DNA from: a virus
Length of the DNA: 32,126 bases
Reading direction: 5' to 3' (one strand)
Virus record (IMG/VR): IMGVR_UViG_3300029264_000377
Location: 1-32,126 of that record
Positions 1 through 29,034 of the stretch are shown piece by piece. The notes under the pieces are model-generated. The model saw only the letters and a list, made by a program, of their open reading frames with translations, was not told where the DNA came from and did no database searches. Within the stretch, counting starts at the first letter, position 1; the number at the start of each line of letters is the position of its first letter. The translations under genes and the position numbers were made by a program.

Positions 1-3000
1 ACTTTGTTGTGTTTGTTGCTTTGCTTTCTTAAGGATAGCATCTCTAGTTCCTGATTTATTTAATTTTTTACCTGCTGAAGGGCTGACTTTTCCGTTATTA
101 CCTTTGTTTATATTAAACACTGTTCCGTCTTCAATAACAGCGTAATCACTGCCTCCGTGAGAAACTTTCTGAAAAGGAGTTACCTTTAACATGGCTTTGT
201 TTATAATCTTTGAATCTGCAGAATCTTTTGGATCAAGTTTATTTCCATTAAGATAGGTGTCTCCGTTAGGTTGTATTTCTAAATCATAAAATGAATTTGC
301 ATCTTTTTTTATTTTTACACTCTTGACTCCATCACTTTGCTCAGCAGGCTTACTATAAGTAGGAAGACCATCATCATTCTTACCTGAGTAAATATAACCT
401 TGAGCCATTAAATCCTCTGCTTCTTCTTGAGTCTCAGCATATTCTAATTTATTAATATCAAAATTATCTCTTTCTTCAAGTATCATTCTAGCTGCAGTTG
501 CTTTCGCTGCACTTATAGGAGTAGTTTTACCATTCTGATTAGAATAGGATGCTTTTTTATGTGCTTCAAGTATCTTATTCAATTCATCAGTAGAACTATC
601 CTTTAATTCTCCATAAACCTTAGTTAGCATTTTACTCATCTTAGGTTCAGGAATAATCTCTGCTTGAATCTCTGCTTCAATCTCAGGTGCATTAGTGCTA
701 AATGAACCATCTTCATTCATTGTTATCATCATTGTTGCTCCCTCGGTATCATCTTCACTAGATATCCCAACTTCTCCTTTATCAGACTCTATCGCCCCAA
801 CTTCTTTTCTAGATGCAACAGGCTCCATGTATAACTGGATTCTTCTACCAGTCATTTTGCCATTAACTCTCTCTGCTGTATTGGCGAATGAATTTACTAA
901 CGGCTTAGCATTAGTGCTGATTATTCTGTTCTCTATAACATAATTCTTGTACTCATCACTATTGGTCCATGATTTTAGATTTAATTGTCTTCTTTTTGAA
1001 TTTCTTAAGAAACTAACTAAAGCAGCAATACTTTTTGGGTTATTCTTGAACCCTGGAGACATTCTTTCTCCACCAAAAAATATATCATTACCTTTAATGT
1101 ATAGTTCAGATTTCTTGTTTTTAGTCTTATCACTTACATAAACGAAACTTTTTATTAGATCCATAATCTTTGGCTCCTTGTATTCTGGATCCAACATTTC
1201 AATTTCAGGACCCATTAGTTCTCTTACTAAGGCTAATCTTTCTGGAGATAACTTATCTATTGTATCCTTAAAATTTAATTCTTTTTTAGAAACAACAAGA
1301 GTTTTTTTATCTTTTTTACCTTCATACATAAAAGCACCTTGTGCGTCAAGAATTGGTTCAGGAACAGCCATGTTGGATAAAAGATCTGCCAATAACTCTG
1401 ACTGAGCATCAGTATTGCTTAATAAATTTAATCTTAATGCAAATGGCTTACCGTTAGCTTTCTTTATAATCAAGAATACACCACCTTTGTACGGATATCT
1501 ATTACCATTACTATCTTCAGCAAGCAGTATTGGCTTACCAAATCTAGTATCAGGATCTTTATTAGAATCCATTAAGTAGCCCTTTTCATCTGAAAATCTA
1601 AGTTCAACATTATCCATGTTGTTTCCAATCTGTAATATGTCTAAAATAGAGTGTCTTGGTACCGTGTTACTTACTTTATCATAATCAGTTACAAGATCTC
1701 CACCTGAATTTTTGGCAACTTTAGAGGTTACTAATTCTCCAGCATGTAGTCTATCGATTATAATTTTTCTTTGAGAATCATATCCTTGCTTGTATTCATG
1801 TATCTTTTCTGCACTAGAACCTTTGATTGGTTTAGTAGGAAGAAACGTAAAGATATCGGAATGCTTCTCAAGTGTAGCTTTAATTGGCATATTATCATAA
1901 ACTGACTGAGGTATAGGGTCACCTGGTAAAGTATTCTCAAAAGTCTGTATAGCATCATTTTGCAATGTAGACAATGCAGTGCTTCTTTCAGATACAGTGT
2001 ACCCAAATACCTTTCCTATTTTACTAACAGGATTCTCATTCCAAGCTTGATAAGCTTCAATTCCTCTAACTTTATCTAGTAAAGCCATTAATCTTCCAGA
2101 TCCAATAGAGCTTTCCATGACCTTATCTTCATCATCTAATTGCTCTTTCTCAAATGAAGGCTCTGCATCAGCATTCTCATCTTCAACAACATCTCCTATT
2201 GGAGTGTGAATTTGATTATTTTCAACAGTTATATCTGCATCTCTTTCTTTAGCTTTCTTTTTTAATTCAGCAGCAACCTGTTTAGCGGCAGCTTTATTTT
2301 CAGCAAGTTTATTAGCAGCTTTAATAGTTGCCATTCTTTCGCCAATCTTTGTTTCTATTTCTTCAAAGTCTTCCTTAGCAATTTCTGATTCATCAAGATC
2401 TTTTTTTAATATCTCAAGGTCCTCTATGGTATTGGCTTGTCCAACTTGTCTGTCTATTTTTACAGAGTGTGACTTTTTTTGACCTTCTTCAGATTTAGAA
2501 AATATTATATCCTCATTGTTTATAATGATATTTTCATTAGCTCTTTCTTCAATTTCTCTTGCAGCAATTATATCACTTGCAACTCCATCATAAGCAGCTT
2601 GAGCTATAATGTTATCTGGAATCATATTTTCCTCCTGCTCTTTAGCAACTGGATCTAATTCTTTTCTTTTTTTAGTATTAGCTTTTGTTTCTCTATCTTG
2701 AGCACCAATTTTTAACTGGTTTATATCGATAGCTTTCTGTAAAAAAGCCTTCTTGACTTCAGACTTCTCTCTATTAAAAGCTGCTCTTAATGCTTTCTTT
2801 CTTCTTCTTAAAACAATACCTCTTTCTTTAACTTCTAATTTACTTTTTAAAGTAGAAGATGCTTGATATTTCCAAGCATTACCTAAACCATTTCTAATGG
2901 CTTCAGTAGCTTCTCTCTTTTCAAGGGCTAAATTACTCATAGACTCATTCTCTAGTTCTAATCTAGATAGCTTAGAAGATGTTTCTGCACTATAATTGTT

Positions 3001-4698
3001 TCTATGTTTAAGATACTTATCACGCATCTCTAATGATCTAGTTAATATCTGTGGAATATACTCTTCAGCTAGTTTTAGATCAAACTCTGAACCTGCTCCT
3101 TCCTCGAAGCTAACTCTATCTTCTTCAGACATGTTAGATATTTGAGATAAAGTCTCATAGAATTGGTCAAACTTATTTGCCTCTAAAGATTTGGCAGTTA
3201 AATTTAACATCATTTCATTTATAACAGCTTTTCTTGCAACAGGAGATTCTTCTTGATCCGCGCTGTTTAAGTGTTGAAACATTAGAGCTACTTGTTGAGC
3301 ATCTTGTCTTATAGTCTTTTCGTAGTATTTCCCTAGAGTCTCCTCGTATTCTTTTTGATTTTTAGATTTAAATGCAGAATTTACACCTTTACCAGCAAAC
3401 TGAAATAAATTACCACCAAGTCCACCAAAGAATGCTGATGTTAGCATTTCTTCAGATCCAAATGCCTCTGACATTTTCTTGTCATATTGCTCCTCAGTAA
3501 TATAACCTGAATCAAGATCTGTTTTAAACTTAGCTCTTTCAGCAATTATAAACTGATAACTTTCTTCACCTCCTTCTCCAATAAAAGTTTGTGCTGCCGC
3601 ACTTGCTTTTTCTTGCCAAGGCTTCATACCTGAATTAAGTCCATTTTTAGAACCTACGCCCACAGCATTTTCCATCTTTTTGGAAATAGGATTGAACACT
3701 TTTCCTAAAGCTAAGTACTGGGGTATATCTTGAAGCAACATTGCCCATCCAAGTTTCCAGTTAGAAGAAGCAGCTTTTGATGCAAGATCATTAGCTTTGT
3801 CTTCTGTAAACAACTTGCCGGTTTCTTTATCTATTTCTCTTAGTTTCTCAGCTTTGTAAGACTTATAGGTCCCGTGAGATTCCATCCAGTTCTCAATGTT
3901 ACGAGAAAGAACAGCTTGTGAAATACCTTCAGTCATCCACTTGCCTTTAGTTCCCATTTTTTCAGCTAATCCAGCAGCTTTTCTTGCAGCCTGCATTCCT
4001 TTTGAAGCACCAATACCTCGTCCAACAAAAGATAAAGCTTTCATTGCACCTGTGGTTGGAATTAGCATTGATAGAGTTGAAGCAACAGATACACCGTTGC
4101 TAAACCACCATCCTGAATCAGCCATTTTTGAAAAACCAGTTGCATTTGGATCTTGATAAATTCTAAGCTTCTCTTCAGTACCTTCTCTAATAGACTGCCC
4201 AAAGTCTGTCATAAAGTTTCCCCATTCAGCCTCATCTCCTTGCATAACATCTAGTACAGAACCTATGTCAAGTAAATATCCTAATCCCTCAATAGAACCA
4301 CCAACAATCTCTCCCATAACGGCTTGTCCCAAGAATCTACCCGCTTGCTCAAAGACACCTTGATTATTTGCTCTTTGAGTATTAAGTAGGTCTAATCCAG
4401 CATCATCTGGCTTAAATATATCAGTACCTAAATAATCACGATAATCATCAAGATCTGCATCAATAACTTTATCATAGACTCTGTTTTCACCTCTATTTCC
4501 AGTAGTTAATTTACCTGATTTAATTTCCTTAGCAATACTAGCCCATGGGTTCTTACCTCCTTCATTCTCTTCCTCTGCATCTTTTGCTACATCTTGAGGA
4601 ACCGCTTGACCTGGCTCATTTAAACTATCTATTGATACATTTTTTGTATCAACAGACGCTTCGTTTTCAACTAAATTTAACTCAATATCTTTTGACAT
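1..4698 (-). CDS. Giant crAss-like virion cargo/ejection protein (3' end beyond window)
   Basis: An uninterrupted reading frame runs from an ATG at 4698 to the window edge, at least 1566 codons. I translated it almost completely and found no stop. The first ~100 residues are acidic and look disordered. Residues ~110-390 look like a folded, partly hydrophobic region with Gly-rich stretches (GGSIEGLGYLLDIGS near 133, STLSMLIPTTGAMKAL near 207) and end in an IGEGGEESYQ motif near 373. The middle (~430-900) is highly charged and helical, rich in Glu, Lys and Ala. The last visible part is more beta-like. It starts 27 nt after the 760-aa gene with GGAAG nearby. Very long, helical proteins at this position of crAss-like genomes are virion cargo proteins that are probably injected with the DNA; that role is inferred from position, size and remembered similarity. 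No enzymatic motif was recognised. Confidence 0.82.
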   Translation of the reverse strand, partial: MSKDIELNLVENEASVDTKNVSIDSLNEPGQAVPQDVAKDAEEENEGGKNPWASIAKEIKSGKLTTGNRGENRVYDKVIDADLDDYRDYLGTDIFKPDDAGLDLLNTQRANNQGVFEQAGRFLGQAVMGEIVGGSIEGLGYLLDIGSVLDVMQGDEAEWGNFMTDFGQSIREGTEEKLRIYQDPNATGFSKMADSGWWFSNGVSVASTLSMLIPTTGAMKALSFVGRGIGASKGMQAARKAAGLAEKMGTKGKWMTEGISQAVLSRNIENWMESHGTYKSYKAEKLREIDKETGKLFTEDKANDLASKAASSNWKLGWAMLLQDIPQYLALGKVFNPISKKMENAVGVGSKNGLNSGMKPWQEKASAAAQTFIGEGGEESYQFIIAERAKFKTDLDSGYITEEQYDKKMSEAFGSEEMLTSAFFGGLGGNLFQFAGKGVNSAFKSKNQKEYEETLGKYYEKTIRQDAQQVALMFQHLNSADQEESPVARKAVINEMMLNLTAKSLEANKFDQFYETLSQISNMSEEDRVSFEEGAGSEFDLKLAEEYIPQILTRSLEMRDKYLKHRNNYSAETSSKLSRLELENESMSNLALEKREATEAIRNGLGNAWKYQASSTLKSKLEVKERGIVLRRRKKALRAAFNREKSEVKKAFLQKAIDINQLKIGAQDRETKANTKKRKELDPVAKEQEENMIPDNIIAQAAYDGVASDIIAAREIEERANENIIINNEDIIFSKSEEGQKKSHSVKIDRQVGQANTIEDLEILKKDLDESEIAKEDFEEIETKIGERMATIKAANKLAENKAAAKQVAAELKKKAKERDADITVENNQIHTPIGDVVEDENADAEPSFEKEQLDDEDKVMESSIGSGRLMALLDKVRGIEAYQAWNENPVSKIGKVFGYTVSERSTALSTLQNDAIQTFENTLPGDPIPQSVYDNMPIKATLEKHSDIFTFLPTKPIKGSSAEKIHEYKQGYDSQRKIIIDRLHAGELVTSKVAKNSGGDLVTDYDKVSNTVPRHSILDILQIGNNMDNVELRFSDEKGYLMDSNKDPDTRFGKPILLAEDSNGNRYPYKGGVFLIIKKANGKPFALRLNLLSNTDAQSELLADLLSNMAVPEPILDAQGAFMYEGKKDKKTLVVSKKELNFKDTIDKLSPERLALVRELMGPEIEMLDPEYKEPKIMDLIKSFVYVSDKTKNKKSELYIKGNDIFFGGERMSPGFKNNPKSIAALVSFLRNSKRRQLNLKSWTNSDEYKNYVIENRIISTNAKPLVNSFANTAERVNGKMTGRRIQLYMEPVASRKEVGAIESDKGEVGISSEDDTEGATMMITMNEDGSFSTNAPEIEAEIQAEIIPEPKMSKMLTKVYGELKDSSTDELNKILEAHKKASYSNQNGKTTPISAAKATAARMILEERDNFDINKLEYAETQEEAEDLMAQGYIYSGKNDDGLPTYSKPAEQSDGVKSVKIKKDANSFYDLEIQPNGDTYLNGNKLDPKDSADSKIINKAMLKVTPFQKVSHGGSDYAVIEDGTVFNINKGNNGKVSPSAGKKLNKSGTRDAILKKAKQQTQQS

Positions 4699-7030: not shown

Positions 7031-8671
7031 TTAATTATCTCGTTTATTTGATCTTCTTTTTATCTTATCAGCTTTAGCTTTAGCTTTAGCTTTAGCTTGC
7101 TTTTCTCTTGCTAGCCTGGCTTTTTTAGCCAAAGATCTTCCTTTTTCATCATATCCAAGTCCCATTAATTCTGGGAATCTCTTAAACATCTCTTCTTTTC
7201 CTACCCCTCCAAGATCATTTCCTAATTGAGACAGTAATTTACTCTTGTTAGTTTTGTAAGCTGCCTCTTGTTCTAGATTAAGATCAGTATCTCTATTTCC
7301 TTGTTGCAGGTTAATTTTATCTATTCCTAGATTAAAGTTCTGTGCATTTTTCTTTTCTCCTCTATTTTCAGCAGTAGCTTGTTGATATGCAGATGACATA
7401 GCTTTTGTTCCTTGCAACTGAGAAGCTAGTAAACTTGCTCTAGCTGAAGATCCTGAGCCACCTGACGAACTTAAAATAGCATTCCTATTATTGTTAACAG
7501 ATTCTTGAACAGTATTTTGTAATCCTCTCTCATCAACTAATTGCTCATTGTATTTTGTATTAAGTCTATCTGAAGAAATGGTACCAGGTTTTTTTAGTGA
7601 CATCAATTGTGCAATATTCATTGCAGCAGGTGCATATCTTAATGATTCTGCAGGATTATATTTATACTCCTCTTCATCTTCAGGCTTATCATCGGCAACT
7701 TTATCAAATGATTCAACACTGTATGCTTCACTTGGTAAACTATTTGCAAAGCTATCAACTTGAGATAATCTTTCGTCTTCTATTTCATTATTGATTTCAT
7801 TCAGTTTATTTTGATCGTCATAATAATTATCTTCTTCATTGAAACCTCCATGTGAATAAGAGTTTGTATCTGAAGAATCTTTTTTACCACCCATCTCGTA
7901 CATGTTAGCTAATAGATTACCACCTTTTTTGTATGAGTTTGTAGCATTGTTATGATCAGCATTAGCAAAAGCAACACTAGCTTTATTTGCAGCTTTTATT
8001 GCTTTGCCTGAACCCACAAAACCAGATACACCACCTAGAGCTGTTCCTATTGCAGCTCCCCATGGGCCAAAAGATTTTCCAGCTTCCATTCCTTTCATTG
8101 CACCTTTCATTGTTCCGCCTGCTTGAGAATCTACTTCCGGTGCGTCAAATTTACCGCTAGTGTCTATATCTGATTTACCAAAAGTTTGTTTAGCCATGTC
8201 CATGACAGTTCCAAGTTTATCAGCCATTCCTGAAGCTCCACCTGCTCCACCTAAAGCTCCTGCTGCCCCATCTGCTCCGCCTGCTGCTCCACCAGCACCT
8301 CCTGATTTACCAAGCATTTGTAATATACCTCCAAGATTATACCCGTTAGATTCTTTCGCAGGTTCAGAACCTAGCGGTCCTGCTTGCTCCATGCCTCCAT
8401 CAGGGGACATGTCGGAAGACACATGCTCAGCACCTTCCATAGTACTGCCGTCTGGCATTTGATGAGTCTCTCCTTGAGGAGAACTTCTTTTTTCTTGCTC
8501 AGCTTTTACATACTCTTGAGCTTGCTGTAATCTTCCTTGAAGTTCATTAAGTGTGGCAATGTCTTCAGGGCTGTTTCTATCTTCAAATCTTTTAGCAATA
8601 CTTGCACTTGCATCAGAAAATGATTTACCTTTGATGTAATTGGGTAAGTTAAATTTAGCTATTATATCCAT
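7031..8671 (-). CDS. Virion protein with Gly/Ala-rich stretch and glycine zipper, crAss-like
   Basis: I place the start at the ATG at 8671. The longer frame to 8719 would need a TTG start and overlap the upstream gene, whereas 8671 leaves 1 nt after that gene's stop. The 546-aa product opens with FNLPNYIKGKSF (7-18) and a helical part ending at LQGRLQQAQEYVKAEQEK (~44-61), an N-terminus I associate with crAss-like virion proteins. Residues 124-148 are almost only Gly and Ala. Residues 203-222 (PWGAAIGTALGGVSGFVGS) form a glycine-zipper hydrophobic segment that could insert in a membrane. The C-terminus is an Ala-Lys repeat plus basic residues encoded by a 6-nt DNA repeat. The composition suits an ejected protein that helps DNA cross the envelope; this is inference. 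Confidence 0.77.
   Translation of the reverse strand: MDIIAKFNLPNYIKGKSFSDASASIAKRFEDRNSPEDIATLNELQGRLQQAQEYVKAEQEKRSSPQGETHQMPDGSTMEGAEHVSSDMSPDGGMEQAGPLGSEPAKESNGYNLGGILQMLGKSGGAGGAAGGADGAAGALGGAGGASGMADKLGTVMDMAKQTFGKSDIDTSGKFDAPEVDSQAGGTMKGAMKGMEAGKSFGPWGAAIGTALGGVSGFVGSGKAIKAANKASVAFANADHNNATNSYKKGGNLLANMYEMGGKKDSSDTNSYSHGGFNEEDNYYDDQNKLNEINNEIEDERLSQVDSFANSLPSEAYSVESFDKVADDKPEDEEEYKYNPAESLRYAPAAMNIAQLMSLKKPGTISSDRLNTKYNEQLVDERGLQNTVQESVNNNRNAILSSSGGSGSSARASLLASQLQGTKAMSSAYQQATAENRGEKKNAQNFNLGIDKINLQQGNRDTDLNLEQEAAYKTNKSKLLSQLGNDLGGVGKEEMFKRFPELMGLGYDEKGRSLAKKARLAREKQAKAKAKAKADKIKRRSNKRDN
7071..7097. repeat. Hexanucleotide tandem repeat (gcttta x4) inside a gene
   Basis: Four perfect copies of gcttta plus a partial copy. 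On the coding (minus) strand it encodes an alternating Ala-Lys run just before the basic C-terminus of the 7031-8671 protein. Such a tract can change length by slippage in 6-nt steps without breaking the frame. Confidence 0.9.
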
Positions 8672-8672
8672 G

Positions 8673-10448
8673 TTATGATAATTTGTATTCTGTTTGTTGA
8701 TTGTTATCTTCAAAAGCAACAGTGTTTAGTGCTTTTAGAATTTTCTTGTTTTCAAATGTCATAAAAAAGTTACTGTTATATAAGTCATTAGTTTTAACTC
8801 TTTTTAATAATTCTTTTTCATTAATCTGCTCGCCAGGCTTAAGTCCAATTTTCTCTCTAAATTCAGAGAAATTACCATAAGTTTCATGTGGTTGATTAAG
8901 GTATCTTTTAACATTTTCTAAGTGATTTTTTCCTTCTTGATGAAATGAGTTTCCTAATACGCTTTGTAGTTCACCAGCCATAGCTTGATCAAACTTAGAT
9001 GCATGTGCTCTCTCATGAGTTTCAACACCTGGAGTATTTTTAAATTTAGGACTAACACTAATATTATTAGTCTTTTCATCATACGTTGCTTTAGCATCTG
9101 AATTACTATTATGATTATCATAGTTAGCAGTAAGTCCCGCTAACAAATGATTATCTATATCGTAATCAGATAACCCAGCTTGCTCCTTTAATCTGCCTCT
9201 TGTAACAGGATCATTGTATCTCTTTAAAAACTCTTTAGCCCCGAAAGTATTTGCTAGACTATCAAAGTCTACACCCTCTTTCTGATTAGTTGAAAATGAA
9301 TTTGGCTGATTCATGTAGTTAGCCCTTATGTCGTGAACTTCAGTATCTAATCCTTTAGTGTGCTGAGCTGATTGTGTCTTTGTATATTGTAATGGGTACT
9401 TAGATCCCTCATTTTCTTGAGGTCCAAAAGCTGGTGTAGTTTCTACTACTGGTATTTTTGGTTTCTTTACAGGATCAATTAGTGAGTTCAAAGAACCTCC
9501 TTCAGCAAACACATTTGATTTCTTTCCATCTTCACCTGTGAAATTACCACCCATATCAAAAGAATTAGAAAAAATATAATCATTCCATTTAGTCTCTCCT
9601 TCTTCTACAAGATTAGTTTTGCCATTAGCACCCACTCCTTGAGGAATACCTCCTAATGGATTATCTTCATGTGAACCTCCACCTTCAAATAGAGTCACTA
9701 ATGCATCTGCACCAGACTGTGCACTCATTTGGCCACCTCCTTTAAAACTGTTTGACTCTTGCTTGTTTGTAAAACTAGATTCATTTTGACTCAACTTAGA
9801 CATTAAGTCATTCATTGAGTTTGCATTTGTATTGTCTTGAGCTCTTGGTATATTTCTTTCATTAGGAATATTAGATGGCACTTCTCTTTTTGGAGAAGGA
9901 TCTAACAAAGTCTTAGGCTCTTTAACGAACCCTTGATCTAACATGTTTTTATCAAAGTAACCTCTAAACTTTTTAACATATCCATCAACTGTCATGTTTT
10001 GTCCTCCTGGGACTTTGAAGTTATCTGGATCTTTTAAGTATTTACGAACATTTCCTGCACCAATGAAATGAACCATTGCTGTTAAATCATTGACATCCAT
10101 ATCTGAACCAAACTCACCTTTAAGTTTTCTTGCGTACTTCTCCCCATAGGTGTAATCCTTTAAAGAGCCGTCAAGAGCTTTGTCCATTATAGATTCCTGT
10201 AACTCAGGTCTATTCATAAACTCTCTTTTGCTGACACCATCCATTGAAGGGTCATTTTTTATAGCACTATACAGGAAATGATATTTACCTGCGGCACTAG
10301 ACCAACGCTTACCAGTATTAGGGTTTATGCCAGTCTCAAGGAACTTACCTCCAGAAGACTCTATCATGCCTATTGCATGCTTAAAAGCCTTCTTGTTAAA
10401 TTTAGAAGGCTTTGGATTATTTTTATTATTTTTATCTTTATTAGGCAT
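8673..10448 (-). CDS. Virion lytic transglycosylase-like protein with C-terminal HExxH metallopeptidase-like domain
   Basis: A 591-aa protein with two apparent enzymatic ends. Residues 21-165 resemble lysozyme-like transglycosylases: IGMIESSGG puts a likely catalytic Glu at 30, followed by SAAGKYHF (51-58) and a helical domain ending near GYFDK. It would cut peptidoglycan during entry. Residues 235-320 are Gly-rich, with GGSHEDNPLGGIPQG (258-271) and NLVEEGETKWNDYIFS (279-294), a pattern I recall from other Bacteroidota phage virion proteins. The C-terminal part has VETHERAHASKFD, a clean HExxH zinc motif (His478, Glu479, His482), and a possible third ligand in HETYGNFSEFR (Glu522). It lies directly before other ejection-type genes, so it is probably part of the virion. 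Activity of either domain is unproven. Confidence 0.8.
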   Translation of the reverse strand: MPNKDKNNKNNPKPSKFNKKAFKHAIGMIESSGGKFLETGINPNTGKRWSSAAGKYHFLYSAIKNDPSMDGVSKREFMNRPELQESIMDKALDGSLKDYTYGEKYARKLKGEFGSDMDVNDLTAMVHFIGAGNVRKYLKDPDNFKVPGGQNMTVDGYVKKFRGYFDKNMLDQGFVKEPKTLLDPSPKREVPSNIPNERNIPRAQDNTNANSMNDLMSKLSQNESSFTNKQESNSFKGGGQMSAQSGADALVTLFEGGGSHEDNPLGGIPQGVGANGKTNLVEEGETKWNDYIFSNSFDMGGNFTGEDGKKSNVFAEGGSLNSLIDPVKKPKIPVVETTPAFGPQENEGSKYPLQYTKTQSAQHTKGLDTEVHDIRANYMNQPNSFSTNQKEGVDFDSLANTFGAKEFLKRYNDPVTRGRLKEQAGLSDYDIDNHLLAGLTANYDNHNSNSDAKATYDEKTNNISVSPKFKNTPGVETHERAHASKFDQAMAGELQSVLGNSFHQEGKNHLENVKRYLNQPHETYGNFSEFREKIGLKPGEQINEKELLKRVKTNDLYNSNFFMTFENKKILKALNTVAFEDNNQQTEYKLS

Positions 10449-10502: not shown

Positions 10503-13500
10503 CTAGTGCTGTGTATAAAAAATTGTTATGTCATGTAAAATTAATTTGTTTCCATCTGGATTACTAAAACTAAATTCAGCAAACCCCCAAGAACTTCTAA
10601 CTCTATCTCTACCACCTGCATTTCTTGGAAAATTTAATTTCCAGTTTCTAAACTTTTTAAATACATTTTGTCTTAGGACCAAAGGAACTAAACCTGAGTC
10701 TTGATAATCATTATAAACTCTAACACCTGTTAACCCTTTGTTTGGTAACTCAATGCCAGATTGATTAGCAAGCTCCATCTTGTAACTAGCTCCATTCATT
10801 ATAATCTCATTTCCTTCAGGAGCTACATGGAACGTAATAGAGCTTTTGTGGCTCACTCCGTAGAATTGATTAGGTACTCCTTTGAAGTGCTCCCACACCT
10901 CAGTATTACTTGGGTTTGATGAAATAAGTACAGACCCTTTGTTGATATACCATGCTGGAACATAATCATAGTAACTTGTAAATTGTCCTATTTTTTCATT
11001 AAATCCTAAAGTAAAATCAGTTCCTCCATCTTGAAGAAAGCTGAAGTACACATCTGCATTTACCGGATTATAACCAACAGAAACTCCATTACCTAGAACA
11101 GGATTGTCTTTTCTTAATGATTCGTAATCCATGGTATTAAGTAATTCTTGATGAAATCCTTTTAAATCAGAAAGCCTAGAAACACTTCCTCCGTTAAAAG
11201 TCATTATACCTCTATTTATAGCATCAACAAAGTAGAACGAATTTTCCGTAGTTACAACTCCCCACTTATTTAAGCAACCTAAAGTAGTGCTCTTGTAAAC
11301 ATAGTCATGAAGTATTCCTCCAGTACCTAGCTCAAGAGCTACTCCATCTTGAGGATTAATTTGAACTCTAGGATTGATAGCAATATGTGCTACCGCCGTA
11401 TCTTGTAAGCAAAATATTTCATCTTTAATATTTACTACCGCGTTGATTGGTCCATACTTTCCATCAAGATCCATTTTTTCATTCTCTAAGAAATCAGTCC
11501 AACTATCTATAAATTCTCCAGGTATTTTTTCTTTTGAAGACATTAGCCTTCCGTCAAACTCTTTTATTTTTTTAATCTTATCTCCAGTTCCAATAGACTT
11601 TATTAAAGTTGGTTGTTGAGAATACACTGTATTGTATTTTTGGTACTCATCATATTTTGGCTGCCATCTATTATCCCAAACACCTAGAGATAAATCATCT
11701 CTATTTTTTAAATCAACAGTAGACTCGCATCTAAAACTAACTATCTCTGAAACTATATTAAACTCACGAACTTTAACTTCTAAATCATCTTTAGCTATTT
11801 TAGAAAAAGTAAACGTATTAACGAATGTATCTCCGGGAGATTCAATAATATTTACAGATTGATTTATTTCAGAAAAAGTACCAATCTCAATATACGCGGA
11901 CCCTTTCTTAGCTTCATAACTAAAACCACCATATATTCCTCCAACATATGATGCAGATGAATCTTTAATAAACTCTGCAATAAGGATTCCTTTAGTAGCA
12001 GCTCCAGTTATATTTGCTTCACCATACATTTGCTCTATACTTTTTCTTGACTCTATTGGGTAGCTAGAATCATCTGAACCTTCAGCAAATGTAATGCATT
12101 TTGCTCCTATTGAATTACATCCTGTTATAGCTACTTTTCCTCTTGCATCGTCAGATCTGTCCCAGCTATCTACCCTCATTGTTTTCAAATGATTAGCGTA
12201 TCTTAACTTATAATCATTATTGTATGGAGTAAAACCTGCACCTTCCTGAGTAAGCTCAGGAGATCCATAAATATCATGTTCAACAATACCTGTTGCTGGT
12301 TTAAATGCTCCTTGAAATTGTCTGTAAACTTGAGATGTCTGCATGGTGTTTTCTCCATTGGTTGGGCCAAAGAAACTAAAATCATATAAATCCCATGGAG
12401 CTCCGGTAATAAACTGAGGTGTAACTCCTGGAGTAGATATTGAGACTCCGTTAATAAACTTTGCTTCTATAGCATTCTCTGCATTTATTGGATTAGTTTC
12501 AGTTCCCCAGTTTGCAACATAATCCTGCTCCATCAAACCAACTATGTTTAACTTATAGCTTGAGTCTAATTGAGCGTCCCTAAATATTATTTCTGGACTA
12601 AAAAATTGAATTAATCTATTGTGCTGAAAATTCTGTGCTCTCCAGTCAGCTGAAGACTTTGCTTTAAATCCTTCGTATGATTGTCCTGGTCCTGCATTAA
12701 GCTGCTCAAATGTTGAATCATTAGCATTATTCCATGCTAGTTCAAAGTAATCTTTACATTGTACGAATGGTGGTTGATCCTCAAACATGCGAGTCATAGA
12801 AGGCATTTTGTCTGATTTCTCTGAATCAACTGCTTCTTGTCTTGTAGCAAAAGATGTTCTTTTGTTTACGCCGTTAGAAAAATTAGCAATCATTGGATTA
12901 ATCATTCCTTGAGAATGAATAGTCTGATCATTTAAAGTTCTATCTGCTCTTAATACTTTATATCCAACAGGCTTGTCGTCTTCAGAATTAAAGTTAGAAG
13001 AGTCATTTAGCCATAAGTAGAAATCAGAACTAAGAGTTACTTTTAATTGATTGTAGTTTCCTTCTAGGTTTCCTGAAGGAGTCTTCATATCCATTATCCA
13101 TTTTGGATCAGATGACTGTCCTCTTCTATTGTAGAACTTTAAACCTATTCTATAAATCTCTCTATCTTTTAAGAACTGCAAATCTTTTGATTCAGAATCC
13201 GATAAAGATGTTTGTAAGAACTCTACTTTCACATACTTCCCCGAAGCACCTTTTGTAACTCCATCTGATTGAAACTTATAAATATCATAGTTGCTATTTA
13301 TTGAATCGTGAGTAAGAAACAAGTTGTAATTAGGAGCCGATACACTAGAGGCGTTTCCCGCAGCATTGCCATTAGAATCTATATAAGCATTATTTATTAC
13401 ACTGCAATTAGATCCAGAGTCAAATGAAAATGCTCTCATATCTAAATCAGGAACATCAAATAATTGTTCCTTTATATTTATAGGAAACAATCTATTATCT

Positions 13501-14585
13501 TTTGTTACAATATGCTTTGGTATTATTGGGTTTGATCCAAGAAATATAAAAGATTCTAAAGATATTGAATCAACAGAGCTTCCGTCATCAGTAAACATTA
13601 ATGAAGTAAAGTCATCTATTTGCTTATCGGCAACAATTGTTATTTCTGGAATTTGATTGTATGAGGTATACTTTATAGAATATATTTTTACATTAGTAAA
13701 CTTAGAATCTATATTTGATATGTTTAATTGAACTGATTTCCCTAAAATTTCATTAACTTCACCGCCGCCTAATCCTAATCCTTTGTCAATAGGAACTAGT
13801 TTTGATAAAGGTGATGGTGTTGTCTGAGCACCGTTAAGTATATATGGAGCATACGCGTACTGAACCATTCCAGATGTATGAGATCCTCCGCTTATTACAC
13901 CTATTATTTCGGGTTGAGATAATGTAAATGTACTTACCGTGTCTATTGAGCTAGGGCTAACGTCTATTAAATTTATAGAGTCACCGTTATCAACGCTTTG
14001 ACGTATGTTGAGGTATCTTAATTGGTGCTCTCCATCGACAAAGTATATTTTTTGTATAATTGAATTTTCATAATTGTACAATACTTGAACTAATGAATTT
14101 GATGATAATCCTAAATTACCCATATAAAGTAAGTTTAGGTCAAAATTAGATTCATTCAAATTTGTAAGTTCCCAGAAACAATCAAAACCATTATTATCAG
14201 TAGTAACTATTATTGCAGAATCTCTTAAAGCTTTTGTTCCAATTATTGACTGAACTCCAGAAGTGGAAACCACTGTTGGGTTTGTAGATAAAACATACTG
14301 AGACTCAATATCACATCTAGGTATAACACTAGAGGTAGTAACATAGTTCAATGACTTAGCGTTTCCTGATAAAGTATAATCTATGGATGTAGTTGTTGTA
14401 TTAACAACTGGAGAAGGGATAGAGAAAATTAATTCATTCCCATCCTCATTAGTCAATGCAAAAGAACTTTTTTGATCTGTTTCAATTATTCTTATATTCC
14501 TGGCGTCAAAATATTTATCCGTTTGGATATCACTCGACGTTCCTTTTGACATCCCTCTATAAGGAGTTGTAAGTTTTTTTATCAT
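10503..14585 (-). CDS. Tail stabilization / muzzle-type protein (crAss-like, P22 gp10-like role)
   Basis: A 1360-aa, beta-rich protein with an ATG start and a TAG stop. It opens with a segment (PYRGMSKGTSSDIQ, then KYFDARNIRI) resembling the start of crAss-like stabilization proteins. Around residues 1090-1140 is STTLGCLNKWGVVTTENSFY then FVDAINRGIMTFNGG, the 'run-time check' strand pattern seen in beta-propeller tail proteins of T7 gp12/P22 gp10 type. Further on, NEKIGQFTSYYDYVPAWY is also typical of this family. It would form the distal part of the short tail that closes the DNA channel and carries fibres. It follows the tail tube/ring gene by 5 nt, the expected order in crAss-like genomes. 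Length is usual for this group. The assignment is from memory of family sequences, not from a search. Confidence 0.82.
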   Translation of the reverse strand: MIKKLTTPYRGMSKGTSSDIQTDKYFDARNIRIIETDQKSSFALTNEDGNELIFSIPSPVVNTTTTSIDYTLSGNAKSLNYVTTSSVIPRCDIESQYVLSTNPTVVSTSGVQSIIGTKALRDSAIIVTTDNNGFDCFWELTNLNESNFDLNLLYMGNLGLSSNSLVQVLYNYENSIIQKIYFVDGEHQLRYLNIRQSVDNGDSINLIDVSPSSIDTVSTFTLSQPEIIGVISGGSHTSGMVQYAYAPYILNGAQTTPSPLSKLVPIDKGLGLGGGEVNEILGKSVQLNISNIDSKFTNVKIYSIKYTSYNQIPEITIVADKQIDDFTSLMFTDDGSSVDSISLESFIFLGSNPIIPKHIVTKDNRLFPINIKEQLFDVPDLDMRAFSFDSGSNCSVINNAYIDSNGNAAGNASSVSAPNYNLFLTHDSINSNYDIYKFQSDGVTKGASGKYVKVEFLQTSLSDSESKDLQFLKDREIYRIGLKFYNRRGQSSDPKWIMDMKTPSGNLEGNYNQLKVTLSSDFYLWLNDSSNFNSEDDKPVGYKVLRADRTLNDQTIHSQGMINPMIANFSNGVNKRTSFATRQEAVDSEKSDKMPSMTRMFEDQPPFVQCKDYFELAWNNANDSTFEQLNAGPGQSYEGFKAKSSADWRAQNFQHNRLIQFFSPEIIFRDAQLDSSYKLNIVGLMEQDYVANWGTETNPINAENAIEAKFINGVSISTPGVTPQFITGAPWDLYDFSFFGPTNGENTMQTSQVYRQFQGAFKPATGIVEHDIYGSPELTQEGAGFTPYNNDYKLRYANHLKTMRVDSWDRSDDARGKVAITGCNSIGAKCITFAEGSDDSSYPIESRKSIEQMYGEANITGAATKGILIAEFIKDSSASYVGGIYGGFSYEAKKGSAYIEIGTFSEINQSVNIIESPGDTFVNTFTFSKIAKDDLEVKVREFNIVSEIVSFRCESTVDLKNRDDLSLGVWDNRWQPKYDEYQKYNTVYSQQPTLIKSIGTGDKIKKIKEFDGRLMSSKEKIPGEFIDSWTDFLENEKMDLDGKYGPINAVVNIKDEIFCLQDTAVAHIAINPRVQINPQDGVALELGTGGILHDYVYKSTTLGCLNKWGVVTTENSFYFVDAINRGIMTFNGGSVSRLSDLKGFHQELLNTMDYESLRKDNPVLGNGVSVGYNPVNADVYFSFLQDGGTDFTLGFNEKIGQFTSYYDYVPAWYINKGSVLISSNPSNTEVWEHFKGVPNQFYGVSHKSSITFHVAPEGNEIIMNGASYKMELANQSGIELPNKGLTGVRVYNDYQDSGLVPLVLRQNVFKKFRNWKLNFPRNAGGRDRVRSSWGFAEFSFSNPDGNKLILHDITIFYTQH

Positions 14586-16481: not shown

Positions 16482-17534
16482 TTAGTATAATATTCCTCCG
16501 TACCAGAAACTACCATCTGGATTTACATATATCTGAGATACATTAGATCTACCTAATTCATCAATCATATTAATAGCAAATCCATTTGCCCATTGTGATT
16601 TCATTGGTCGAGTAGCGTAATTAAATGCTGATGTAGTGAAGTCTGCACAAGATCCAATATTGAATGCTGCCATTTCTCCTTCTCTGTAATTCTGTATTCT
16701 ATGTGTATGAACATAAGCACATGATGATCTTAATTTGTCAATGTGTGCTTTAGCATTATGAATACTGAAGTAGATCCCATGAAATATTTGAAAGTTGGTC
16801 CCGAGTGTAAAGAAGTCTTGTGACCACTTATTTTTTACGTGATACCCTCTACCCTCTAATTGCATTCCGTCCATTGGAGATAGAAGCGGAGTCTTTGCAT
16901 TATCCATGTTAGACATCCATCTATTGTGTCTGTCTTCATGATTACCATACATGTAAGTTTTCCAAGTACCTTTTGGAATTACACTTTCAAATAAATCCAA
17001 CTCTTCATTACAAATATCATATTCTTGATCTAAGGTTAATCCAGGTACAGCAGTGAACCTTCCTTTGTCATGTGAAGACAAAGTGTTGATGTCTGCAAAA
17101 TCTCCCATTAAATGGAATCCCTTGATCTTATCCTGATGATCTTTCATCATATTTCTTATTCCCGCATGCAATTTTTGATTATGAAATGGCACATGATTAC
17201 ATCCTAGTAAAATATGCATTCCAACTTGATCTTTTATTGCTGGTACTTTTCCAGATCTAGGTTCTTTTCTTCTTGACAATGTTGGTGCAAATGGTGTTGC
17301 TGATAGTTTCTTTATATTTTCATTAACATGATCTCTAAAGTCTTCAGCAATACTAACTTTGCTTTTGTTTTTTAATTCTTTTTTAACTTCTTTCTTAACG
17401 TCCCTTATATCGTGTATATAAAATACTTTAGAATAATCTCTTAAAAGTGCTTGCTGTATTTTTAAGTTACCTTTTTTTAGGTATCCTTTTTTACTTAATA
17501 AAAATTTCTTAATAACTTTTGTACTACTACTCAT
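16482..17534 (-). CDS. Calcineurin-like metallophosphoesterase with altered first metal motif
   Basis: A start at ATG 17534 is chosen over a TTG two codons upstream (350 aa). Residues ~6-60 are basic and helical, possibly a DNA-binding or adaptor part. The phosphoesterase core follows: LLGCNHVPFHN (109-119), HLMGDFAD (141-148), MYGNHEDR (196-203), IFHG (250-253) and VHTHR (275-279). These correspond to the five metal/phosphate motifs of calcineurin-like enzymes. The usual D-x-H of motif I is C-x-H here (Cys112, His114), and the Gly of the last GHxH motif is Val. The other ligands (Asp145, Asn198, His199, His252, His276, His278) are present. The enzyme may act on nucleic acid or nucleotides. 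It has its own upstream promoter. Its presence among tail genes is unexplained. Confidence 0.85.
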   Translation of the reverse strand: MSSSTKVIKKFLLSKKGYLKKGNLKIQQALLRDYSKVFYIHDIRDVKKEVKKELKNKSKVSIAEDFRDHVNENIKKLSATPFAPTLSRRKEPRSGKVPAIKDQVGMHILLGCNHVPFHNQKLHAGIRNMMKDHQDKIKGFHLMGDFADINTLSSHDKGRFTAVPGLTLDQEYDICNEELDLFESVIPKGTWKTYMYGNHEDRHNRWMSNMDNAKTPLLSPMDGMQLEGRGYHVKNKWSQDFFTLGTNFQIFHGIYFSIHNAKAHIDKLRSSCAYVHTHRIQNYREGEMAAFNIGSCADFTTSAFNYATRPMKSQWANGFAINMIDELGRSNVSQIYVNPDGSFWYGGILY

Positions 17535-17560
17535 AAACAATTTTATATTAATATTATTCT

Positions 17561-18010: not shown

Positions 18011-18739
18011 TTATTGTGAAAATGAACCGCTTCCAGCATCGGATACAGCAAAGTTAAATTCTAAAGATTGAAATGTTGTTATTGATGCATCAGGATAGTA
18101 AACTAAATACTCTAGAGCAATTTCAGTAAAATCAATTATCTGATTAGCAACAACATTAGTTCCATTAAATACTAATAAACCACTTGCAGGTAAATCAAGT
18201 ATTTTCAATCTAGAAGGAGCGTCTCCTTCAGGATCCAAATAAACAGGAGTTGTATAGCTAGTAAATGATTCCGGAGTAAACGTTACTGTATCTCCATAAC
18301 TTACCAGTATAGACAGATCTCCAATTTGACTAGGAGGTAGATTCTTAACAGAAGTCACATTCATTGACATATATCCTGCTCCCAATCCACTCAATGAGTT
18401 AGACCCAACGTCTGCGAGGTCAAAAGAATAAGCAGACACGTAAGGTCCTGCAATTGATTGATAAACAAAATTTCCTGTACTAACATTACCTGCGTCAATT
18501 ACATCATTTATATTTACCGAGACTCCGTTTAGATAAAGCCCTCCCGTGGCGGGAAGACTTAAAATCTTAATGTATGCTAATGCATCTCCTTCTGGGTCCG
18601 AGTATTGAGGCTCAGTTCCTGTTGTAAAGTCAGCTAAACTATATTGATAGGAAGTACCTGAATCAATACTTATAAAGTTTCTTCCTATGGAAGTTGGTCT
18701 TCCATTTTGTAATCCTGTATTCGTTACTGTATATAACAT
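18011..18739 (-). CDS. Virion adhesion protein with two DPEGD beta modules
   Basis: A 242-aa protein made of two tandem modules of about 100 residues. Each has a 'DFT..P.Y.DPEGD' start, then 'I.I..LP..G.L..NG..V', then a 'F..aDvGSnS' or 'FAVSDAGSGSF' end. First module: SLADFTTGTEPQYSDPEGD; second: SFTSYTTPVYLDPEGD. The pattern is reminiscent of bacterial cadherin-like/tandem Ig-like repeats that use acidic loops for calcium. It is clearly related to the protein at 31223-31972 and to the second half of the next upstream gene. Such modules usually decorate fibres or capsids and bind surfaces; crAss-like phages are known to carry other Ig-like domains (BACON). No signal peptide. Role inferred. 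Confidence 0.72.
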   Translation of the reverse strand: MLYTVTNTGLQNGRPTSIGRNFISIDSGTSYQYSLADFTTGTEPQYSDPEGDALAYIKILSLPATGGLYLNGVSVNINDVIDAGNVSTGNFVYQSIAGPYVSAYSFDLADVGSNSLSGLGAGYMSMNVTSVKNLPPSQIGDLSILVSYGDTVTFTPESFTSYTTPVYLDPEGDAPSRLKILDLPASGLLVFNGTNVVANQIIDFTEIALEYLVYYPDASITTFQSLEFNFAVSDAGSGSFSQ

Positions 18740-18753
18740 TCTTTTATTTTATA

Positions 18754-19710
18754 TTATGACACCCATGTCATGTTAACATTATCTCTAACACTAGCGTTAA
18801 ATGAATCAGTTGTAGTTGCATTATTATCTGGAGCTTCGTGATAAAAAGCACCTTGATTTAATTCTGCTGCAGTTATAATCTGACCAATAACAACTTCGCT
18901 TCCTAAGTAGTAGTAAACTCCAGTATTAGCGTCAGAAACTTCATCAATTCTAATTGCATCAAGATCATTTCCTTCTGGATCAAAATATGGTGCAATTGCT
19001 TGTGATGTAAAATCAGATAAATTAAATACTGTTGTTGTTCTGTTTCCTGAATATTGTGCTCTATCTCCCACTGTTGGCGGTGCATTAAATATTGTTATTG
19101 CTTCGACTGTTACGCTACAAGCAACTGTGTTTGAAGCTAGTGGCAATTGAGCATTATTATCATACACGTAGTAGTTAAATGAAGTATTGTAAGCACTATC
19201 ACTATTTCTTACATAGGTAAGTACACCTACGCTGCTTATTAATTCCCCTGCAACTACTGCAACTCCATCATTAAATAAAGTTCCATTAGAAGGCAATGTG
19301 CTAAACACAACACTACTAACAACTCCGCCTGCATCATCTGAATATCCAGAAAATAAATCTGAATAACTAAAAGTGTATTCACTGTTTGGGTCCGTTAGAG
19401 TTACTGCCGAGGCTGTAATCACTGGTGCAGTGTTTCCCTCAACACCAATTGCAACTACTCCTATTGGACTTGTATATTCAATACCACTTACTGATTGCAT
19501 CTCCATACATATATCTGGGTCAACTCTTTGTAGATAAGCAACCATCTTGTCTAGTCTTTGTAATTGAGAGTATGTAGAAGAGAAGCACGCGTATTTGTAT
19601 ATTAATTTTAACAAACTAATATTCTCTATATTTATATCGCCATAATATTGTAGTTTTTTAGATATTTTTGCAACTGATGATACGTATATTTTTGCGTTCT
19701 TACTTTCCAT
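18754..19710 (-). CDS. Adhesion/head fibre-type protein with helical base and DPEGN beta modules
   Basis: The frame extends to 19731 only with a TTG start. The ATG at 19710 overlaps the upstream stop as TAATG, so I choose it (318 aa). Residues ~1-75 are helical and basic with SSTYSQLQRLDKMVAYLQRV, likely a virion anchor. Two beta modules follow: one with YTFSYSDLFSGYSDDAGG and FSTLPSNGTLFNDGVAV, the other with FNLSDFTSQAIAPYFDPEGN and QIITAAELNQGAFY. The second aligns with the DPEGD modules of the neighbouring gene and of the gene at 31223. A capsid or tail fibre with a helical attachment end is the simplest reading. Confidence 0.7.
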   Translation of the reverse strand: MESKNAKIYVSSVAKISKKLQYYGDINIENISLLKLIYKYACFSSTYSQLQRLDKMVAYLQRVDPDICMEMQSVSGIEYTSPIGVVAIGVEGNTAPVITASAVTLTDPNSEYTFSYSDLFSGYSDDAGGVVSSVVFSTLPSNGTLFNDGVAVVAGELISSVGVLTYVRNSDSAYNTSFNYYVYDNNAQLPLASNTVACSVTVEAITIFNAPPTVGDRAQYSGNRTTTVFNLSDFTSQAIAPYFDPEGNDLDAIRIDEVSDANTGVYYYLGSEVVIGQIITAAELNQGAFYHEAPDNNATTTDSFNASVRDNVNMTWVS

Positions 19711-20288
19711 TATACTTGAGTTATTAAGCAATCAATTACACCTACGGATACAATGTTCCCTGCTGTAGAAACTAGTGGATCTATATCTGAACATGAATCA
19801 CAATTAGAAGTGTCAATCGTTATAATTAATTTAGATAAATTTTCAATTGCATCTTGATACCTTCCAACAAGAAGTGCTTGTTTTGTTGCCTCTAAATACA
19901 TGTCAAATAACAATGCGTTTTGAAAATTACTATTACAGCTTAAGCAAGATAAATCTATGTTTGCAATTAGTTTAGCTTGTACTGTAAAATATTGTGTTAA
20001 GTTAAATGTAGCAACTACTGAAGCTTCAGAGTCACTTGTAATTATTTGAACAAAGTACATTCCGGTAAAAGAACTTAAATTTGCTGATGATGTGGTTATT
20101 GATAAGTCTTCAATGTTTGTTGAACCACTTAGTAAGCTAGTTAAATCTACAGATTTACTAGGATCTCTATAAGATTTTTCATCCCATAAAAGCATCTGAG
20201 TTACAGTCTCCCCAGCATTTACTTCGACTTTTAAGTCAATGGTAGAAAGGTCATTAGATACTATAAATTTTATTACGCTAATAGCCAT
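19710..20288 (-). CDS. Conserved crAss-like virion-associated protein with two CxxC pairs
   Basis: A 192-aa protein. Residues 1-~100 form a beta-type domain (VIKFIVSNDLSTIDLKVEV, LLWDEKSYRDPSKSVDLTSL, SSFTGMYFVQI) resembling a conserved hypothetical protein I recall from crAss-like phages. The C-terminal half is helical, with CLSC (115-118) before a helix pair (FDMYLEATKQALLVGRYQDA) and CDSC (163-166) after it, plus Cys187. The two CxxC pairs could bind zinc or make disulfides across the helical hairpin. It is the first gene after the strong terminator at 20313-20347 and is translationally coupled (TAATG) to the next. Likely an adaptor for the fibre proteins that follow; this is inference. 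Confidence 0.68.
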   Translation of the reverse strand: MAISVIKFIVSNDLSTIDLKVEVNAGETVTQMLLWDEKSYRDPSKSVDLTSLLSGSTNIEDLSITTSSANLSSFTGMYFVQIITSDSEASVVATFNLTQYFTVQAKLIANIDLSCLSCNSNFQNALLFDMYLEATKQALLVGRYQDAIENLSKLIITIDTSNCDSCSDIDPLVSTAGNIVSVGVIDCLITQV

Positions 20289-26611: not shown

Positions 26612-27031
26612 TTATTTTATTTTATTTTCAACTATAAGTTTGAAATTGTTTGGAAGAATTTTATTCAATAGACCCATAGTATCACCACTATTTGTCACAT
26701 CTTTCATTCCGTCTCCATCAATATCAATTAAATTATCCCCCGGCAAAAGACACCCTCTGGTGTTCTTGTAATAATTTCCAACATGTATTAAGATGTAAAG
26801 TCTGTCAAACACATCTAATACGTGGAAATGATCACCATATTTAGGAGAATTTCTTTTCACACAATTATACTCACCTTCATTTATTCTTGATACTCCAGTT
26901 TCATTGTTTCTGTATGGTAGCTCTAAAATATACCCAGACAAAACATCACATTCGTATTCGTCAAACACGGTGAAGTTACTTAAGCTTTGTTTCTCATTTT
27001 CTGAGAATCTTGTTACTTTTAATTTAAACAC
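26612..27031 (-). CDS. DUF5675-family protein, probable lysis cassette enzyme
   Basis: The frame extends to 27106 by another GTG, but that would overlap the holin gene by 83 nt. The GTG at 27031 gives MFKLKVTRFS, an 8-nt overlap with the holin stop, and 139 aa, which fits DUF5675. Family features: FKLKVTRF start, GEYNC near 53, LIHVGNYYKNTRGCLLPGD (81-99; His83, Asn86, Thr91, Gly93, Cys94). DIDGDGMKD (103-111) looks like a calcium-binding loop. The His and Cys around the conserved 'IH.GN...T.GC' are candidate catalytic residues. Members occur in Bacteroidota phages near lysis genes, but the reaction is not established to my knowledge; a cell-wall enzyme is likely from the context. Confidence 0.72.
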   Translation of the reverse strand: MFKLKVTRFSENEKQSLSNFTVFDEYECDVLSGYILELPYRNNETGVSRINEGEYNCVKRNSPKYGDHFHVLDVFDRLYILIHVGNYYKNTRGCLLPGDNLIDIDGDGMKDVTNSGDTMGLLNKILPNNFKLIVENKIK

Positions 27032-27524
27032 TCTTGCTTCTTTTAAAAATAGATTTAACTCTTTGAGGAAATAATTTAAGAACACTTTTGAATAAATTAT
27101 TACCACTAACTGCTTCCATGTTTTCGTATATACTGTATATTTCTACAAGACAAGCTACTGCTACGGCTATCTCTGCTATTGAGTATGTATTGCCAAGAAG
27201 TTCTATTGCCGTAGTGCCAAAAACCATGCTGTCTAGCAAAGCAAAAGCTAGGATACCTATTACGTATTCAGTTCCTTTTTTCCATGTACTTCTTAATTGC
27301 TTAGAAGTTATTATTTGCCAAAAACTTGCCCTCCATGGTCTAAACTTAACACCTGCTGCATAATGAGATTTTCTTATTCCAGTAAGAAGATCAATAAAGA
27401 TAATTATAGATAAAGCTAATAGAGCTGTTTTCATAGTTACTAATAGTATAAATACTGGGCTTAATGATAAAAGTAATAATTTACCCATATTCATTTTTGA
27501 AAAAAAGAATGTTAATGACTTCAT
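27024..27524 (-). CDS. Phage holin
   Basis: A 166-aa, small, hydrophobic protein. Membrane segments at about 14-30 (GKLLLLSLSPVFILLVT), 31-46 (MKTALLALSIIIFIDL), and two around 85-125 (YVIGILAFALLDSMVFG, SIAEIAVAVACLVEIYS). The pattern DLLTGI near 45 and EIYSIYENMEAVSG near 127 are typical of the toxin-secretion/phage-lysis holin family (Phage_holin_4). The tail is basic (KRVKSIFKRSKS type). It permits the lysis enzyme to reach the cell wall. It opens the lysis cassette, 8 nt overlapping the next gene, behind its own bipartite promoter motif. Confidence 0.85.
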   Translation of the reverse strand: MKSLTFFFSKMNMGKLLLLSLSPVFILLVTMKTALLALSIIIFIDLLTGIRKSHYAAGVKFRPWRASFWQIITSKQLRSTWKKGTEYVIGILAFALLDSMVFGTTAIELLGNTYSIAEIAVAVACLVEIYSIYENMEAVSGNNLFKSVLKLFPQRVKSIFKRSKSV

Positions 27525-27657: not shown

Positions 27658-29034
27658 TTATGTTATTAATTCTACTTCATTACTAAAAGCGCTAACATTT
27701 TGATGCCCGTCTATTGTTCTGATTTTAACTTTTGAATTATTAGCTGTACCTACGTCGTCTATTATTTCTGTTAAATCAACTGTATTTCCTACTACGGTTA
27801 TTTCTGAATATTCAAATTGTTTTCGATAAACTGTTCCATCATTAATCCAGACTTCAAAACCAATTGTTCCGTTCGCGTTTGCTAAAGGTTCTGTAAAAAC
27901 TAAGTCTACTGAATTTACGTTAAAATTAACATAACTTAAATTACTTGGTGCATTAACTGTAATAGGCGTTGAAACCTCCACTAAAGTTGCTCCACCAAAA
28001 TCCCTAACTTCCATCATAACAACATGAACATCTGTTCCTCCTATAAATGTAGGTGTGCTCCAGGTAGTGGGTCTTCCATTTCCTGGATCAGATGATGCGG
28101 TGATTGTATTACCTATTGCTCCAATAGTTTCGCATAAAAAAGTTATATTATCTCCATCACGATAATAAGAAAGAGAAACATTAACATCACCTGTTCTTGT
28201 GTCGTTAATAATTTTGTTTGCAAAATCCTCACTAGAACCATCAAATTCAGACTCATCACTAGGCGAAGTAACCGCAGTGTAGGTTAAGCCGTTTATTGTG
28301 TGAATGTCTCCAATAGAATATATACCTACTATTCGTATAAATGCTTTTCTATCCATAGCACCTAAAGCTGAATTATAATAACATATAGGATTGGTAGCAT
28401 TTACACCAGCCTTAAAAAAGGTGGGGTATCTTTGCACGTTTCTTATATAAGACCCTTTCAATTCCTCATCGCTAAAAGTAGTCAACAAAGGTATATACAA
28501 AACCTCTAAAGCTCTTAATTCGCTAAAAACACCTTGAGAACCATTGTTTGTAATGCTAGTTAAAGAGCTCAATTTTAAGACTCTTAAATTTTCTGCATCA
28601 GATAGCAAGAATCTATTACTAGCAATTGTTACGCTTTCAAAATTAACATGAGTTAGTCTAGTATTATCATTGAAAGCAAATTGATTACCTATTTCTAATG
28701 CGGAAGGAAAATAAGCGTGAGTTATAAAGTCTGCCTTTCCAAAATAATTACCTGATAAATTAAACCCGTCTTTATCAATAAAATACGTAATATCATCATC
28801 ATCATTAAATGCGTTTGCAGCTTTTAAAGAATAATTTTTTTCAATCCTAAAAGAAACACTGTTATCTGAATTTATAACAAAACCAATAACATCCGCCTCT
28901 TCTAATTCTCCACTAAGCGTAGCGAAATCTAAAGCACTTGTAATAGAAGTGGATCCAACATTACCAATATAGGTGTTTCGATCAACCAAAGAAGCTTGAT
29001 TACCGATATATAATAAAGCTCTTCTATTGCTCAT
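27658..29034 (-). CDS. Tail fibre-like protein with leucine-rich repeats and fibronectin-III-like end
   Basis: A 458-aa protein, no signal peptide. Residues ~95-200 carry BspA-like leucine-rich repeats (FPSALEIGNQFAFNDNTRLT, LRVLKLSSLTSITNNG, LRALEVLYIPLLTTF). Residues ~235-335 hold a phage tail/fibre type domain with INGLTYTAV, FANKIIND, LCETIGAIGNTITASS and TPTFIGGTD. Residues ~360-458 look like a fibronectin type III domain (APSNLSYVNFNVNSVDLVFT, VKIRTIDGHQNVSAFSNEV). The combination fits a receptor-recognition fibre. It is last in the first adhesion block and lies just upstream of the lysis genes. Confidence 0.75.
   Translation of the reverse strand: MSNRRALLYIGNQASLVDRNTYIGNVGSTSITSALDFATLSGELEEADVIGFVINSDNSVSFRIEKNYSLKAANAFNDDDDITYFIDKDGFNLSGNYFGKADFITHAYFPSALEIGNQFAFNDNTRLTHVNFESVTIASNRFLLSDAENLRVLKLSSLTSITNNGSQGVFSELRALEVLYIPLLTTFSDEELKGSYIRNVQRYPTFFKAGVNATNPICYYNSALGAMDRKAFIRIVGIYSIGDIHTINGLTYTAVTSPSDESEFDGSSEDFANKIINDTRTGDVNVSLSYYRDGDNITFLCETIGAIGNTITASSDPGNGRPTTWSTPTFIGGTDVHVVMMEVRDFGGATLVEVSTPITVNAPSNLSYVNFNVNSVDLVFTEPLANANGTIGFEVWINDGTVYRKQFEYSEITVVGNTVDLTEIIDDVGTANNSKVKIRTIDGHQNVSAFSNEVELIT

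Follow-up and report, generated by a model that had tools for sequence, protein, structure and literature searches.

A crassvirus homologue of cargo protein 1, with its CARG1 domain divided between two genes, carries a transglycosylase-fold domain and a predicted zinc protease domain

In the IMG/VR virus record IMGVR_UViG_3300029264_000377 (positions 1 to 32,126; this whole stretch of 32,126 nucleotides is referred to below as the window), gene A (8673..10448, minus strand; 591 aa) holds the first half of the crassvirus CARG1 domain, and the next gene, gene B (7031..8671, minus strand; 546 aa), holds the second half. Thus, we are dealing with the environmental-crassvirus form of cargo protein 1 (gp45 in crAss001), split in two and with enzyme domains attached. 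The gene A product is probably a portal-anchored cargo protein 1 that is ejected early in infection, whose transglycosylase would open peptidoglycan and whose gluzincin would more likely cut a host or viral protein than stem peptides.

The window represents part of a Crassvirales genome, in which profile matches recognise the major capsid protein (PF23898, E 3.1e-157), the muzzle protein (10503..14585, minus strand; PF25731, E 1.7e-202) and the ring 1 and ring 2 proteins. Gene A is situated directly downstream of the muzzle gene within the structural block, in synteny with gp44-gp45 of crAss001, and gp081 of Cellulophaga phage phi14:2 occupies the same place after the muzzle gene. The plus strand of 8673-10448 is full of stops, and the open reading frame lies on the minus strand. 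A sequence-only reading had described here a virion protein with two domains; the frame is real, with a transglycosylase-fold N-terminus and a C-terminal HExxH domain, and all the motifs reported in that reading are in place (ESSGG at residues 30-34, AAGKYHF at 52-58, HERAH at 478-482, and Glu522). The virion location is supported by homology, both by the CARG1 match and the similarity to crAss001 gp45 and by phi14:2 gp081, a virion protein detected by mass spectrometry. The first scan of IMG/VR yielded 11 loci related to gene A. In three relatives (L003, 4255-4971; L005, 4132-4851; L018, 4157-4840) an extra gene of approximately 227-239 aa lies between the muzzle and cargo genes; it is absent from the window and has no Pfam match.

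Residues 238-316 of the gene A product (9501..9737, minus strand) match positions 4-83 of the 133 positions in the Pfam model PF25725 crAss_CARG1 (E 2.6e-18; 66.9 bits, the curated Pfam cut-off being 27). The same part matches residues 419-508 of gp45 in the structure 7qog_M (E 1.8e-9). The Gly-rich region between the two enzyme-like domains had been taken for a separator, but it is not just a linker: since residues 238-316 match the portal-binding region of gp45, a piece of the portal anchor is located within this spacer.

The ATG of gene B is at 8671, one base past the stop of gene A, and residues 12-63 of its product (8483..8638, minus strand) match positions 75-127 of the same Pfam model (E 0.0069). 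The same range of the model, that is, its second half, is found at the same place in six of the seven environmental relatives, each match being below the Pfam cut-off; in the seventh (L008) the open reading frame after the cargo gene is a different gene. Neither phi14:2 gp080 nor phi17:2 has a Pfam match to the second half of CARG1. A hidden Markov model built from 12 gene B N-termini matches residues 499-551 of gp45 and two gut homologues, with hmmsearch i-E-values from 7.6e-9 to 7.6e-6 for the three proteins searched, or from 2.5e-6 to 0.0025 at Z=1000; the hhalign probability for the same comparison of profiles is 94%. Hence the domain is not contained in one chain here: gene A covers positions 4-83 of the model and gene B positions 75-127, and the relatives have the same split. 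A one-chain CARG1 is a trait of gp45 lying outside the Pfam criterion, and we treated the split as a variant trait. We infer that two adjacent genes encode cargo protein 1 in this genome, and that its halves rejoin at the portal.

In crAss001, gp45 holds on to the portal wing within the capsid through residues 425-552, and its residues 214-245 are located in the tail barrel. It should be the first protein to leave the virion, from the N- to the C-terminus, and has been named as a likely channel former (PMC10172136). Similarly to gene A, the gp45 gene encodes a CARG1 domain and directly follows the muzzle gene. However, gp45 is one protein of 842 aa with an unsplit CARG1, no HExxH motif and no match to the lytic transglycosylase (LT) model, and its Gly-zipper stretch and C-terminal region are recognisable, by eye, in the product of the neighbour gene B. 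As gp45 has neither enzyme domain, neither is essential to the cargo role.

The N-terminal domain (residues ~16-175; 9924..10403, minus strand) was modelled by AlphaFold with a mean pLDDT of 74, mostly 79-92 outside residues 31-60. The best VIA-align match of the model is Cj0843 (Z 9.8, rmsd 3.2 A, 127 residues aligned), further matches including PaSlt, Slt70, phiKZ gp144 and MltF, and the top 31 matches are all lytic transglycosylases, lysozymes or related glycan hydrolases. Glu30 (10359..10361, minus strand), the proposed catalytic acid, stands at the end of the first helix (residues 19-31 of the model) and, judging from the alignment ends in two VIA-align matches, falls on Glu503 of PaSlt, whose E503Q form is described as an inactive mutant in PDB entry titles. 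In the 12 aligned N-terminal domains (45-62% identity to that of the window) Glu30, Ser31, Gly33, Gly34, Gly54, Tyr56 and Phe58 are invariant. Thus, the fold of the peptidoglycan transglycosylase proposed from the motifs is supported, the invariant Glu30 coinciding with the Glu that is catalytic in Slt enzymes, and the modelled domain may be a transglycosylase, or possibly a hydrolase.

The likeness to Slt-type transglycosylases (Cj0843, PaSlt, Slt70 and the phage protein phiKZ gp144) concerns the fold and the position of the catalytic Glu, whereas by sequence the domain has no match in Pfam, PHROG or NCBIfam, and searches of PDB sequences with the profiles of both domains gave nothing usable. 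As no profile library names the domain, it is called transglycosylase-fold here and is not assigned to any GH family. Foldseek comparison of the two domain models with the PDB gave no significant match (best E 0.16 and 0.89); for the N-terminal domain it was uninformative taken alone, with globins on top, and transglycosylases appeared only in the second look with VIA-align. A search of BFVD returned weak matches, several of them annotated as transglycosylases or tail lysozymes.

The C-terminal domain (residues 348-591; 8676..9407, minus strand) was modelled with a mean pLDDT of 80, which rises to about 90 across most of residues 51-230 in domain numbering (347 is to be added to domain numbers to obtain residues of gene A). 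In the model, strands 107-110 and 115-118 are followed by helix 128-137, which carries HExxH at 131-135, then by helix 164-170 with Tyr516 and helix 173-186 with Glu522, all helices and strands in domain numbering. The sequence-only reading had named HERAH on a surface loop with no third ligand as the case against a zinc site; here HERAH (residues 478-482; 9003..9017, minus strand) is on a helix and Glu522 (8883..8885, minus strand), the proposed third ligand, is on a later one. At the head of the VIA-align matches stand neprilysin, PepO, PPEP-1 and further HExxH peptidases, with Z not exceeding 5.7, a range that may mean a common arrangement only. The fold has therefore been assigned from the topology, the motif and the conservation of the motif taken together.

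Twelve C-terminal domains were compared, the homologues being 41-51% identical to that of the window. His478, Glu479, His482, Tyr516, Glu522 and Arg531 are invariant in all of them. The expected number of chance HExxH occurrences in a protein of the gene A composition is 0.02, and a chance motif is ruled out by the 12/12 conservation. The window contains a second HExxH, HEDRH, encoded within 16482-17540 in a metallophosphoesterase-like protein (with a GNHE motif, by eye); hence the bare motif is insufficient, and conservation decides. That gene (minus strand; phrog_221, E 5.7e-12) belongs to the structural block, and phi14:2 has an annotated metallophosphoesterase at a similar place. Purifying selection on the HExxH module is indicated by dN/dS of ~0.13 (L020/L022) and ~0.10 (phi14:2/phi17:2). 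The proposed HExxH domain with Glu522 as a plausible third ligand is supported, with a zincin-type model and an invariant Glu522 on a following helix, and the domain is a probable zinc protease, predicted to be gluzincin-like.

The closest parallels of the HExxH domain are gluzincins of the PPEP/VgrG2b type, which share the HExxH helix, the downstream Glu and the Tyr on the preceding helix, but have no sequence match and align with Z of only 4.3-5.1. PPEP-3 likewise has its catalytic Tyr190 and its third ligand Glu197 on successive helices, and the spacing from His to Glu (His153-Glu197) is 44, as in gene A (PMC12828418); the spacing from Tyr to Glu is 7 in PPEP-3 and 6 in gene A. Searches with two patterns found no relatives of the module in cellular genome contigs, which is a weak test of a cellular origin. 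A match in cr114_1 (E 0.3) was set aside, as it sits between the portal and capsid genes; the match in cr125_1 has E 0.8.

The arrangement of modules varies among the relatives, whose contigs are incomplete, the presence and absence of modules being counted within those contigs. The layout of the window (LT, first half of CARG1, HExxH) is found in nine loci (L002, L003, L005, L006, L018, L020, L022, L023, L025), in some of them with insertions. In four others (L007, L008, L010, L011) LT and the first half of CARG1 are combined with other modules, and no match to the HExxH domain is found anywhere in their incomplete contigs. In L017 and L027 the HExxH domain is encoded by a separate gene, and their incomplete contigs contain no LT match. 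Similarly to gene A, phi14:2 gp081 has the first half of CARG1 followed by HExxH, but in two copies, only ~25% identical to the domain of the window, and the phi14:2 genome has no match to the transglycosylase model. In phi17:2, gp042 combines Pfam Phage_lysozyme2 with two HExxH copies; the first is 81% identical at the protein level to that of phi14:2, and the second has no equivalent of Tyr516. The similarity of these first copies may be due to exchange among phages that share a host species. The relatives also point to a portal-binding domain that can be divided over two genes and to a cargo protein that takes exchangeable enzyme modules. Two further features of these genomes were seen. Phage phi17:2 (L013, Lightbulbvirus), classed outside Crassvirales, has a CrAss_Ring_1 match at 3556-4326 (E 1.1e-8), which suggests a related tail. 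In the viral contig L027, a Cpn60/TCP-1 chaperonin gene (2681-4225, E 9.4e-60) lies near the stand-alone HExxH gene.

If the preferred reading is correct, the two polypeptides would rejoin at the portal wing in the virion, and on infection the gene A product would leave early, with its N-terminus first. The transglycosylase would then cut glycan strands, letting the ejection conduit cross the peptidoglycan, and the zinc peptidase would refold in the periplasm and cut protein, either an obstacle in the host envelope or a viral protein ejected along with it. A protein substrate is favoured for the HExxH domain because its fold neighbours cut proteins and because VgrG2b, a gluzincin that is delivered by a phage-like machine and is active in the periplasm, had no detected peptidoglycan hydrolase activity (PMC6899460). 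Gene A need not be an endolysin, since candidate lysis genes are present elsewhere in the window (26612-27524, minus strand), namely a DUF5675 gene (E 1.6e-22) and an adjacent gene of a phage holin family (E 1.2e-5); with these separate genes, an endolysin role of gene A is less likely.

Alternatively, the protein could be a bifunctional peptidoglycan hydrolase, with glycan as the target of the transglycosylase and stem peptides or cross-links as that of the HExxH domain. Both domains are indeed in one early-ejected protein, and L007-L011, which lack HExxH, have another module instead, by eye lysozyme-like in L008-L011. There is also a precedent in phi29 gp13, one half of which is lysozyme-like. 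It shares with the gene A product the idea of a two-activity virion hydrolase acting on glycan and peptide, and shows that a tail hydrolase can cleave peptide bonds, but it is located at the tail tip and its peptidase is an M23 D,D-endopeptidase (PMC9662197), so that it differs from a portal-anchored cargo protein with HExxH. The fold neighbours of the HExxH domain are protein-cutting gluzincins, not M23, M15 or NlpC/P60 enzymes, and VgrG2b, a delivered gluzincin, had no detected activity on peptidoglycan (PMC6899460). The cleavage of peptides in peptidoglycan, which the sequence-only reading had suggested, is thus unsupported, and we consider the bifunctional hydrolase unlikely.

The HExxH domain could also be a maturation or ejection protease acting on virion proteins, such as the cargo, the RNA-polymerase polypeptides or the portal anchor itself. 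This is one of the two protein-substrate cases left within the best explanation. That HExxH is flanked by the two parts of the split portal-binding domain, near gene B and other cargo genes, agrees with such a role, as does the need of cargo proteins to detach and partly unfold in order to leave; however, cargo protein 1 of crAss001, cr116_1 and cr128_1 has no such module, and the one-copy, two-copy and separate-gene forms are more in keeping with an exchangeable accessory than with an enzyme required for processing. As a dedicated virion-protein protease, the domain is a doubtful candidate. It is still less probable that the peptidase, with one half of the portal anchor on either side of it, is activated during ejection, on refolding outside the virion, and releases or trims the co-ejected cargo; if it does act on the ejection machinery, crassvirus entry would be a proteolytically ordered process. 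Finally, a structural or binding module that no longer cuts is consistent with the second phi17:2 copy, which lacks the equivalent of Tyr516, and with the weak overall similarity to zincins, but is very improbable given the low dN/dS and the absence of any change at the four proposed metal and catalytic residues across 12 diverged sequences.

The paper on the crAss001 structure never mentions peptidoglycan, lysozyme or peptidase (PMC10172136). The Crassvirales review, Yutin 2021 and the epsilon-crAss paper have no mention of a peptidase, and the one mention of lysozyme in the review concerns lysis. In the literature searched, with most subscription journals outside it, we found no report of enzyme domains or activity on cargo protein 1, and we do not claim priority; nor was a description found there of how crassviruses cross peptidoglycan. 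The presence on cargo protein 1 of a wall-cutting fold, together with a probable protease, would provide a concrete, testable mechanism of crassvirus entry, and phi14:2 is a cultured phage carrying the HExxH part.

Several other genes of the window were also observed. Three proteins encoded on the minus strand in 18011-19731 and 31223-31972 contain repeated DPEGD-type segments, with weak Cadherin-like matches for two of them, and look like related surface or fibre modules. A 458-aa protein (27658-29034, minus strand) has a weak match to BspA-type leucine-rich repeats (E 0.01) and is possibly a fibre or receptor-binding protein.
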